From: Candidatus Poribacteria bacterium
GTDB lineage: Bacteria; Poribacteria; WGA-4E; WGA-3G
Assembly: GCA_026702755.1 (NCBI GenBank)
Contig: JAPPBX010000090.1
Location: 62,001-126,000, forward strand
DNA length: 64,000 nucleotides
Reading direction: 5' to 3'
The position numbers were made by a program, and so were the translations under genes. Shown here one piece after another: positions 50,278-57,329 of the stretch; position 1 is the first letter of the stretch; the number at the start of each line of letters is the position of its first letter. The notes below the pieces were generated by a model. It was not told the origin of the DNA. It worked only from the letters and a program-made list of their open reading frames with translations, and did no database searches.

Positions 50278-51933
50278 CTACCTCGGTTCAAGCACCACAC
50301 AGGGTAGGATCATCTCTTCAAGTGAAATGCCGCCGTGTTGGAAACTGCCTTGAAATATTTCCTTATACATATTGAACTGCCTGTCATAAACGAAATAGTA
50401 ATCCTCTTTGGCGAGAATATAACTTTTGCCAGCTTCTTCACCGGGTAGACGGTATGCGACAGGATCCTTTATGAGCCATCCGGCTTCAGGTGCGCATGAA
50501 ATGCCTTTCCCCTCTTTAAACCGAAGTCCCGTGGTGAGTTCAGCTTGGCTCGAAACTTTCGCTGCATTTTGACAGAGCAGCGAACCGTGGTCAGACGTTA
50601 AGATGACGGTCATACCGCGGTCAGCAGCGATTCTGAATACCTTATACAGATGCGAATGCTGAAACCACGCCTGTACGAGTGCCCGGAATGCGGTTTCATC
50701 TGGAACAAGCTGTTGAAGTAAATCCACCTCATGCCGTGTGTGTGTCAACATATCCAGAAAATCAACAACAAGTGCTGTCAAACTAATTCGATCTGTGACA
50801 CTTAACCAATGTAGGTATTGCATCTCCCCTCGTGTATCAAAAATTTTGAAGTAATGCAGGGGTGGCTTCAGAGGTATCCCATGCCGCTCAAATTGCAAGC
50901 GCATGAGTGCTTTCTCATAGCGGTTGATGCTTGTGTGTGCTTGATCGGGTTCAGCGTATAGATCCGGATGCCTTTCTGCGAACTCAAGCGGAAACAACCC
51001 ACTAAAAATAGCGTTTCGTGCATAACGGGTCGCTGTGGGCAAGATAGAATAATAGTAATCAGTCGTTATGTTGAAAAGCGGGTAGAGCAACGGCTCAATT
51101 TTCAACCAATGATCCAACCGCATACAATCCATAACAACAAACAGCACCTGCTTTCCTGCCTGAATTTCAGGGATGACATATTTGTAAACGACATCTACAG
51201 ATAAAGTCGGGGACGCTTCACCTACAAGCCAACCGTGATAGTTGTCTTGGATATAGTTAGCAAAAGCTGCATTTGCCTCTCGCTTCTCTATTTCATGGAT
51301 AGACTTAAGTTCGTCAACGTTATCAAGTGTATCAAGCCGCAGATCCCATTCCACAAGACGCACATAGGTATCAATCCATGTTTCCCAATCATCGGCAGCG
51401 TCCCAGTCCTGCGTCATCTCACCTAAAACCTGTGTTCCACTAAAACTCCGGCTGTACGCTTGCGGCGTATATGCTTCACGGATTGCTCGCTTCTCAAGCA
51501 GGAAGGTGAGTGATGTCGATAACTGCTTGTGCGAAGTTTCCTCCTGATCACTTGTTGAGATTACGAAAATATCGTCAACATCGTAAAGGCTTCCTTGCTC
51601 CATTACCTCCTGCCCACTCTCGTGCGTTAGAAGAATAATAGGGATATGCGCGTTCACACTCCGAACACGCGAAAGCAGATTTTCCTCTTGCGTCGGTGCA
51701 TCATAATTTAATAAAACTGCGTGATATGTCTCTTCTTGGAGTAAAGAAACGCCTTCAGCCCCAGTGTCCACTAAAGAAACATTGTACCCTTTGAACTCCA
51801 AGAAGCGAATGTAGGGTTTGGGTGTTATATACGTCTGTTCCTCATTATATGTGTTTTCAAGTTGAGCATTAGATTGCTCTACATCAGATATCTGGTTGTC
51901 AATCCACAGAATCCTCCATTTTTTCTCTTGCAT
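50278..51933 (-). CDS. PorX-like protein: receiver-like domain plus PglZ (alkaline-phosphatase fold) domain
   Basis: The 551 residues from the ATG at 51933 (ribosome-binding AAGGGGG) resemble PorX, the type IX secretion response regulator of Bacteroidetes. The N-terminus is receiver-like (WRILWIDNQ, KGYNVSLVDTGAEGVSLLQEETYHAVLLNYDAP, IPIILLTHES). The C-terminal PglZ domain has VLFVVMDCMRLDHW with metal Asp, the conserved LPTATRYARNAIFSGLFP with the phosphatase-type Thr, and TSDHGSLL. The receiver has lost key residues, and about 25 residues are inserted after IDNQ. It heads a dsbD-TPR cluster. PorY, PorL and other T9SS genes are not in the window. Confidence 0.75.
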   Translation of the reverse strand: MQEKKWRILWIDNQISDVEQSNAQLENTYNEEQTYITPKPYIRFLEFKGYNVSLVDTGAEGVSLLQEETYHAVLLNYDAPTQEENLLSRVRSVNAHIPIILLTHESGQEVMEQGSLYDVDDIFVISTSDQEETSHKQLSTSLTFLLEKRAIREAYTPQAYSRSFSGTQVLGEMTQDWDAADDWETWIDTYVRLVEWDLRLDTLDNVDELKSIHEIEKREANAAFANYIQDNYHGWLVGEASPTLSVDVVYKYVIPEIQAGKQVLFVVMDCMRLDHWLKIEPLLYPLFNITTDYYYSILPTATRYARNAIFSGLFPLEFAERHPDLYAEPDQAHTSINRYEKALMRLQFERHGIPLKPPLHYFKIFDTRGEMQYLHWLSVTDRISLTALVVDFLDMLTHTRHEVDLLQQLVPDETAFRALVQAWFQHSHLYKVFRIAADRGMTVILTSDHGSLLCQNAAKVSSQAELTTGLRFKEGKGISCAPEAGWLIKDPVAYRLPGEEAGKSYILAKEDYYFVYDRQFNMYKEIFQGSFQHGGISLEEMILPCVVLEPR

Positions 51934-52126
51934 GTTATACCCCCTTTTTGGCGCAGCTCGCAAGCCGAAACTTGCTTGACAACAGCGCAACATAGGCTCA
52001 CAAAGTGTATCCTACATCTTAATAAAACGGGCAATCCATCAGCTGCCCGATGTTTCGGGGTGAGCATTTATAAATCCTTCAACAAAAAGCAAAAAACACG
52101 ACGTGATCCTCTGCTTAACAACAAAA

Positions 52127-55719: not shown

Positions 55720-56499
55720 ATGCGAAAATCGATATTGATTTTAGGAATTGCTTGTTTGATCACTTGGACACTATCACATATCTGTTCTGCTGAAATCGAT
55801 CCGGAAACAGCCGTTGGTGTGTGGCTTTTTGATGAAGGTGCAGGTAAAACAACCAAAGATGCTTCAGGAAAAGAGCACGATGGCACAATCAACGGTGCCA
55901 AGTGGAAAGACGGAAAAATTGGAAAAGCACTTGAGTTTGATGGCGCACAATGGGTGTCCATTGACTCTACACCGGAACTACAACTCGGTGAAGAACTCAC
56001 GATGATGGCATGGTTTTTTGCCACAGATATTTCCACTTGGCGACAACTCATTGCTAAAAGTAACGAATATCTCTTGAGGATTGATCCGCCACAGGAAGGG
56101 AATAAAATGTCAGCGTTTGTCAAGCCCGGTGGAAGTTGGGAACCGAGAGCCTCGGCGAATGTTCCTGATGAAAAAAAATGGATTCACTTCGCAGCGACTT
56201 ACGACATCAACGAGAAGGCTGAGCAACTCGCCGTGTACGTAAATGGTAAAAAAGCAGGGGTGAGCACACGTCCCGGAAAAACCGCTGTTACTGGCAATCC
56301 TGTCGAGATTGGTAAATGGGGTGGCGGTTCATACTTCGTCGGTATTATTGACGAAGCCGCCATTTTCAACACTGTTCTCAGCGAAGACGATCTCACAATT
56401 ATCGTGGAACATGGATTAGCAAAGGCACTTGGTGGGTTAGACGTTGAACCAACAAGCAAGTTGGCAACAACATGGGCAACCCTTAAAGCAAACCGCTAA
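55720..56499 (+). CDS. Secreted LamG-domain (concanavalin A-like) protein
   Basis: This exported protein of 259 residues has an N-terminal signal (ILILGIACLITWTLSHICSAE). The LamG-type fold has ETAVGVWLFDEGAGKTTKDASGKEHDGTINGAKWKDGKIGKALEFDG, then LTMMAWFFATD, WIHFAATYDI and FVGIIDEAAIFNTVLSEDDL. It probably binds carbohydrate, but the ligand is unknown. It ends with a tail, VEPTSKLATTWATLKANR, shared with the next gene. GTAGGAG precedes the ATG. Confidence 0.87.
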   Translation: MRKSILILGIACLITWTLSHICSAEIDPETAVGVWLFDEGAGKTTKDASGKEHDGTINGAKWKDGKIGKALEFDGAQWVSIDSTPELQLGEELTMMAWFFATDISTWRQLIAKSNEYLLRIDPPQEGNKMSAFVKPGGSWEPRASANVPDEKKWIHFAATYDINEKAEQLAVYVNGKKAGVSTRPGKTAVTGNPVEIGKWGGGSYFVGIIDEAAIFNTVLSEDDLTIIVEHGLAKALGGLDVEPTSKLATTWATLKANR

Positions 56500-56563
56500 C
56501 CTACAATAATACCGCTATTGAGTCCTTTTTATTTTTTGTTAACTATAACATTACGCTATATGC

Positions 56564-56569
56564 TATAAT
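56564..56569 (+). promoter_or_regulatory. Extended -10 before the second lectin-fold gene
   Basis: TGCTATAATG contains a TG-extended TATAAT (56564-56569) 25 bp before the ATG; no good -35 box is at the usual distance. Confidence 0.4.
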
Positions 56570-56594
56570 GACTTAAACCAAAAGGAGGATTGCT

Positions 56595-57329
56595 ATGCGA
56601 ATCACGATTCTCGTATGCGGATTCCTGATGTGTCTCATCGGGACAGGTTCTGCCGGTGTATGGACGGATCCGTTTGATGGCAACGAACTCGTTGAAGAAT
56701 GGGAATTTCGCGATTATCGCGACAAAGTTACAACGTTTGAAGTCAAAGATGGCTTCCTACAGATGACCAATCCGAAGGGCGGATGGGGACATACCACGCC
56801 TGACAAACCGATGGTTGAACGGGAAATCCCGAAAAGCGCAGCGAAAAACATTACGGTGAGCGGGATTTTTACCACCGAACCGGATAAACCAGCGGATTCG
56901 TGGATTGGTATTTTCCTTTACAGTGATGACGACTTGAACTACGCCTGTTTGCTATTTGGCGGCGAAGCCAACCAACCGCAAAAAACACTCATCGGTAGTA
57001 TGGTTGAAGCCAATTGGCAAGACAAGGGACACTTCCAAACCGGCTTCGATGTTCCCATTCACCTCAAGATTGTCAAAGAGGGCGATCTGTTCTCTGGCTA
57101 CTACCGCGAAAGTGAAAAAGATGACTGGACGCTGTCTGGGAACAAAACGTGGAACCACAAGTTTGACGTAGAGCGCGTCGGTGTCGGTTTCATGAACAGT
57201 TGGGGCGGTCAAACAGTTACATTTATGGTCGATACACTCTCCATTGAAGGCGAAGGGATTGAACCCTTGTCAGTTGCGCCAAATGGCAAATTAGCGACAA
57301 CATGGGGGATCCTCAAAGCAAGTCAATAA
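56595..57329 (+). CDS. Secreted concanavalin A-like (DUF1080/DUF1349-type) protein with shared C-terminal tail
   Basis: This exported protein of 244 residues begins ILVCGFLMCLIGTGSAG, a signal peptide. The body (WTDPFDGNELVEEWEFRDY, GFLQMTNPKGGWGH, DLNYACLLFGGE, LKIVKEGDLFSGYYRESEKDDW, GFMNSWGG) has the pattern of the jelly-roll DUF1080/DUF1349 group rather than LamG. The last 18 residues, VAPNGKLATTWGILKASQ, match those of the previous protein. AAAGGAGG lies seven bases before the ATG. A surface or carbohydrate-binding role is inferred. Confidence 0.85.
   Translation: MRITILVCGFLMCLIGTGSAGVWTDPFDGNELVEEWEFRDYRDKVTTFEVKDGFLQMTNPKGGWGHTTPDKPMVEREIPKSAAKNITVSGIFTTEPDKPADSWIGIFLYSDDDLNYACLLFGGEANQPQKTLIGSMVEANWQDKGHFQTGFDVPIHLKIVKEGDLFSGYYRESEKDDWTLSGNKTWNHKFDVERVGVGFMNSWGGQTVTFMVDTLSIEGEGIEPLSVAPNGKLATTWGILKASQ

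Follow-up and report, generated by a model that had tools for sequence, protein, structure and literature searches.

A short C-terminal tail on exported proteins of Poribacteria as a probable address label

Many exported proteins of Poribacteria end in a short C-terminal tail, which is probably an undescribed address label for the location of these proteins. The tail family has the consensus V-x-[PA]-x-x-K-[LIVMF]-x3-W-[GA]-x-[LIVM]-K, followed by 1–5 residues and the stop codon. The tail is nearly confined to exported proteins and, as far as sampled, is restricted to the phylum Poribacteria. It does not match any model among the Pfam, NCBIfam, and T9SS tail models. The string "KLATTW" was not found in the literature, and searches of the Poribacteria literature on sorting and type IX secretion yielded no description of the tail.

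Two tailed proteins are encoded in the window, the 64,000-nucleotide stretch analysed here, from the genome of a sponge-associated Candidatus Poribacteria bacterium. P1 (55720..56499, + strand) is an exported LamG_3 protein of 259 aa (PF13385, E 3e-23; AF2 pLDDT 88), and P2 (56595..57329, + strand) is an exported protein of 244 aa, identified as a ConA-like beta-sandwich from its AF2 model (pLDDT 86) and Foldseek. Their signal peptides, whose ends are approximate and were set from the sequence by a hydropathy rule, are MRKSILILGIACLITWTLSHICSA in P1 (55720..55791, + strand) and MRITILVCGFLMCLIGTGSA in P2 (56595..56654, + strand). The P1 tail, VEPTSKLATTWATLKANR (56443..56496, + strand), is formed by the linker V-E-P-T-S and the predicted helix K247–N258, while the P2 tail, VAPNGKLATTWGILKASQ (57273..57326, + strand), is formed by a linker and a predicted helix at residues 232–243. 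Both tails have been assigned from pattern matches and AF2 models, with 45 aligned orthologues in addition for P2. The DNA pattern matches in the window lie at 56443–56487 and 57273–57317, where none are expected in shuffles. Both ORFs are present with the shared ending that a sequence-only reading of this DNA had described, and the window DNA confirms that the two tails use different synonymous codons.

The same reading had taken P1 and P2 for proteins of different fold and P2 for a DUF1080-type protein. The DUF1080 assignment has not been confirmed, since P2 has no Pfam match. The solved structures nearest to its AF2 model are GH43 xylosidases (Foldseek), and the part of them matched by P2 is presumably their lectin-like domain. 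Judged by the Pfam match of P1 and the AF2 model of P2, the two are of the same broad fold (LamG_3 and ConA-like beta-sandwich) and, therefore, the argument from different folds is weak for this pair alone. It holds genome-wide, where truly different folds carry the tail. P2 orthologues are found in 56 of 85 Poribacteria genomes. All 48 orthologues read retain the first tail K and the tail W, even where body identity falls to ~25%, and K241 is missing in only one of the 48, which is cut by a contig end. K232, W237, and K241 are invariant in the 45-row orthologue alignment.

The tail is by no means limited to these two proteins, and ~140 proteins carry it in the genome of the window (G000). This and the other counts for that genome come from pattern searches and from the sequence stretches read. 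The generalised pattern, V.[PA]..K[LIVMF]...W[GA].[LIVMF]K, was searched in-frame as a 45-base DNA pattern and gives 139 matches in the 5.84 Mb of this genome, against 0 for the reversed pattern. A simpler L[A/T]TTW DNA pattern gives 84 matches vs 21 reversed, and the reading frames of these matches show more than 80 ORFs that terminate in the tail. The strict 30-base pattern has 63 matches in the same genome and is present in 83 of 85 Poribacteria genomes, which belong to 20 of 22 genera; the reversed control gives 0–1 match per genome. Among 12 other Poribacteria genomes, the generalised pattern is matched 20–75 times per genome. Six Planctomycetota genomes have 0 matches to it, and the reversed control also gives none.

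The two genomes without the strict pattern, G038 and G040, contain 31 and 43 LamG stretches, respectively. Many of the LamG ORFs read in them finish in a diverged version of the tail (for example, SVDPRGKMAAAWASLKRAN or AVQPKDKVTVAWGEIKRAYP), and the generalised pattern is matched 23 times in G038 and 20 times in G040 (24–75 times in the other ten Poribacteria genomes tested). Their use as a natural tail knock-out for finding a partner has been rejected, as both carry the diverged tail.

The named contigs listed with matches are nearly all from Poribacteria, and two are labelled otherwise. Contigs with typical tails have been observed in a bin labelled Planctomycetota NIOZ-UU13 (L144, L327, and L328) and in a bin labelled Pseudomonadota RHO2_bin_21 (L121). 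Only 2 of 294 sampled genomes of the phylum Planctomycetota match, with 1–2 matches each, in ORFs with genuine tails, and the L144 protein shares 70% identity with one from Poribacteria. Because of this identity and the small number of matching genomes, the Planctomycetota-labelled contigs are likely to be misbinned. The assignment of the L121 and L144 tails to true Pseudomonadota and Planctomycetota has thus been rejected in favour of misbinned Poribacteria contigs as the most likely origin, with the L121 case being the weaker one.

The association with export has been measured in ~0.85 Mb of sequence from the genome of the window. Of 175 ORFs that scored as exported, 65 carry the tail, vs 5 of 366 others (Fisher p 3e-30). 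Signal peptides were called by a simple hydropathy rule and, since the sample is centred on tails, the ratio matters and not the 37%. In at least three of the five tailed ORFs scored as non-exported, the signal peptide or the start was missed by the rule. The tail is therefore not equally common on cytoplasmic proteins, an outcome that the sequence-only reading had named as one that would speak against a signal. Nor is it found only in P1 and P2, the other such outcome named there. A lipobox was found in the signal peptide of 0 of 87 tailed proteins, compared to 8 of 136 untailed signal-peptide-like ORFs.

The bodies that carry the tail are varied. Among 80 tailed proteins, Pfam identifies LamG_3 in 46, the 3-keto-disaccharide hydrolase family (DUF1080) in 6, and PD40 propellers in 4, while single proteins match LTD (lamin-tail), F5/8C, CBM4_9, CBM9, and polysaccharide lyase. 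The tail has also been found on LRR bodies. At least eight domain types carry it. After removal of the signal peptide and the tail, the bodies fall into 19 BLAST groups, the largest with 53 of 81 proteins. LamG-type proteins make up about half of those with the tail, so that counts of tailed proteins are inflated by paralogue expansion. Many of the tailed genes are tandem paralogues, and the tailed genes are scattered over the genome and do not form one cluster.

The position of the tail is fixed with respect to the end of the protein. The strict pattern is matched 94 times in 80 named loci, each time 1–12 aa from the stop. In a set of 342 distinct C-terminal tails, 93% have K(-1) and 99% the final K, and 96% end 1–5 aa after the final K; W and V are present in 100% by construction, as the search expression required both. 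The synonymous codons of the tail resemble genome usage. Outside the codons for Trp and Lys (two-fold), third codon positions in the tail hold 0.0–0.3 bits. The next 40 bases, past the stop codon, show no conservation to speak of. Since there is little information at third positions and no conservation past the stop, selection acts on the peptide. This is what the sequence-only reading had proposed from the codons of the two genes. Recent copying of DNA, or a mobile 3' element, has been rejected on the basis of the codon use and the lack of conserved DNA past the stop.

The tail is predicted to be a short C-terminal helix on a linker, ~18 aa in total. In the AF2 model of P2, the terminal helix sits on its linker with a pLDDT of ~68–77, and in the model of P1 a terminal helix at 244–257 follows a loose linker with a pLDDT mostly below 50. 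Over the 342 tails, conservation varies with a helical period: the signal is strong near 90–100 degrees and absent near 170. The hydrophobic moment does not favour the helix (0.89 for helix vs 0.97 for strand). The conserved face is formed by L, W, and L/I at i, i+4, and i+7, flanked by two Lys and small residues, while tail positions 6 and 10 are free. None of 105 tails reaches a mean hydropathy of 1.6 over 15 residues within the last 30 aa, the measure used for a transmembrane segment.

C-terminal sorting tags on exported proteins are of a known kind, but this tail does not fit T9SS CTDs, sortase-type CTERM tags, encapsulation peptides, or lipoproteins. Like the tail, the T9SS type A CTD (TIGR04183 / PF18962) is C-terminal and found on many Sec-exported proteins of varied bodies, and the two share genomes and, in some cases, related bodies. 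The type A CTD, however, is an Ig-like beta-sandwich of ~70–80 aa with GxY and a basic motif E, whereas the Poribacteria tail is a predicted helix of ~18 aa. The MYXO-CTERM, PEP-CTERM, and GlyGly-CTERM tags share with the tail a short C-terminal form, dozens or more copies per genome, and a lineage-wide occurrence, which for MYXO-CTERM is phylum-wide (PMC11980579). These tags have a transmembrane helix and a basic cluster cut by a membrane protease, unlike the tail, and a sortase-type tag (sortase, exosortase, or myxosortase) has been rejected because there is no transmembrane segment. The encapsulation peptides of microcompartments are short helices on a flexible linker that are recognised by a docking partner (PMC12339742, PMC11157265), but their cargo is cytoplasmic while the tailed proteins have signal peptides. 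The short T9SS CTDs of Prevotella intermedia are three-stranded sheets of 40–51 aa that keep motifs B, D, and E (PMC11969387). They resemble the tail in that one organism has a shortened C-terminal signal as well as long CTDs, but none of motifs B, D, and E is evident in the Poribacteria tail.

The sequence-only reading had suggested a search for co-occurrence with T9SS, and this has been found. The genome of the window contains 59 T9SS type A CTD stretches, and CTDs are present in 13 of 13 Poribacteria genomes tested. A SprA homologue (PF14349) is present in 11 of these 13 genomes; that of the genome of the window matches TIGR04189 with an E of 1e-43, below the equivalog cut-off. The window itself contains a PorX-like gene (50278..51993, - strand) with a response regulator receiver and a PglZ domain (PF00072, E 3e-5; PF08665, E 1e-15), possibly a T9SS regulator. 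Kamke et al. 2014 observed T9SS CTDs in Poribacteria but not the structural genes of the Por system (PMC3909097), and the SprA homologue reopens this statement of T9SS signals without structural genes. The tail itself is not a T9SS CTD, as the sequence-only reading had already held. PF18962, PF13585, and PF13860 are matched by 0 of 80 tailed proteins, and TIGR04183 (type A) and TIGR04131 (type B, CHU_C) are absent among the matches of these 80. Membership in the CTD family has been rejected on the basis of these missing matches and the AF2 helix on a linker, while T9SS has been kept as a hypothesis for the route.

The CTD proteins are larger, from hundreds to >2000 aa, and 39 of 49 match PF18962. 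A tailed protein and a CTD protein on contig C88 (locus L052) are 58% identical over 337 columns, and other pairs of tailed and CTD bodies are 36% identical over 321 aa or 25–30% identical over shorter stretches. That related bodies can have either of the two endings suggests that they are sent to similar places. Both endings serve the same kind of proteins, with the cell surface as the probable site, which does not imply a common machine. The CTD proteins of the genome of the window are very uniform at the end, most finishing like ..VASGVYFYTLTAGDFTATRKMLIRK, and among 49 CTD proteins scanned, 30 match Dockerin_1 and 11 match WD40. Locus L052 (G000:C88:13000-32900) is an LRR/LTD cluster in which three ORFs with the helix tail and one with the T9SS CTD share bodies, a natural tail swap.

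We consider it fairly probable that the tail serves as an address tag, specific to Poribacteria, at the C-terminus of Sec-exported proteins, and that this tag would dock on a common envelope receptor. Under this proposal, Sec export and removal of the signal peptide would come first. The linker V[ED]Px[GD] would then present the helix K-L-[AT]-T-T-W-[GA]-x-[LI]-K, 1–5 residues from the free C-terminus, and its conserved face (L, W, and L/I at i, i+4, and i+7, the two Lys, and the small A/G positions) would dock into a groove of one putative envelope receptor. This receptor may retain the protein at the outer surface or hand it to the outer surface, by a route parallel to T9SS, which would handle the larger proteins with Ig-like CTDs. 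A docking peptide would fit the near-invariant W and both Lys on unrelated bodies, the fixed distance to the C-terminus, and the free outer positions. What we infer here is the sorting or anchoring role, the docking, the receptor, the destination (localisation) of the proteins, and whether the tag would be cleaved. More tentatively, with somewhat less than an even chance, the short helix and its putative envelope receptor may form a dedicated sorting system of Poribacteria, with a cargo of ~140 proteins, more than the T9SS CTD class, and with a mechanism unrelated to sortase tags and T9SS CTDs.

The tail could also be a minimal T9SS signal, in which the SprA/PorV machinery of Poribacteria takes a short helix instead of an Ig-like CTD. 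The SprA homologue in 11 of 13 genomes, the CTDs in all 13, the PorX-like gene in the window, and the related bodies with either ending would all agree with this. In the HBP35 CTD, the final 22 residues are enough to secrete GFP (PMC10202324), and short CTDs are known in Prevotella (PMC11969387). We nevertheless regard a minimal T9SS signal as unlikely. The tail resembles CTDs neither in sequence nor in structure (0 of 80 proteins match) and is a predicted helix with no GxY or motif E strands, whereas even minimal CTDs are beta-strands; according to the literature, Bacteroidota have T9SS and CTDs without the tail.

An assembly tag, by which exported proteins would be clustered into an extracytoplasmic complex or coat via a scaffold or self-binding, is quite improbable. 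Its anatomy would be that of encapsulation peptides, in which a disordered linker carries a short helix (PMC12339742), as in the AF2 models, and many of the cargo proteins are lectin-like. But known encapsulation peptides are cytoplasmic while the tailed proteins carry signal peptides, no scaffold gene is known, and the tailed genes are spread over the genome. It is very improbable that the tail has no sorting role and either spread along with a single LamG-type family as that family expanded or was copied as DNA. The largest BLAST body group (53 of 81) and the many tandem paralogues would agree with such an expansion, but the other bodies are of unrelated folds (propellers, LRR, LTD, F5/8C, and CBM), tail codons follow genome usage with nothing conserved past the stop, and the tail persists where bodies are 25% identical. 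The multi-fold distribution and the codon test already refute the lack of a sorting role, unless all bodies share an ancestor. We give very little weight to any explanation outside these four.

New secretion machinery has repeatedly been discovered by way of C-terminal sorting tags, as in the cases of PEP-CTERM, GlyGly-CTERM, MYXO-CTERM, and T9SS. The tail considered here is found throughout a phylum prominent in marine sponges, and in the genome of the window it marks ~140 exported, mostly lectin-like proteins. If it is an address tag, the ~18 aa peptide would provide a handle for fishing out the receptor, and the tailed proteins can be listed as probable surface proteins of a symbiont for which metagenomes are the main source of knowledge. 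The P1–P2 pair is kept together in many genomes of the genus, with homologues of both in the same loci (L236–L265), and from this conserved pairing P1 and P2 may act together.
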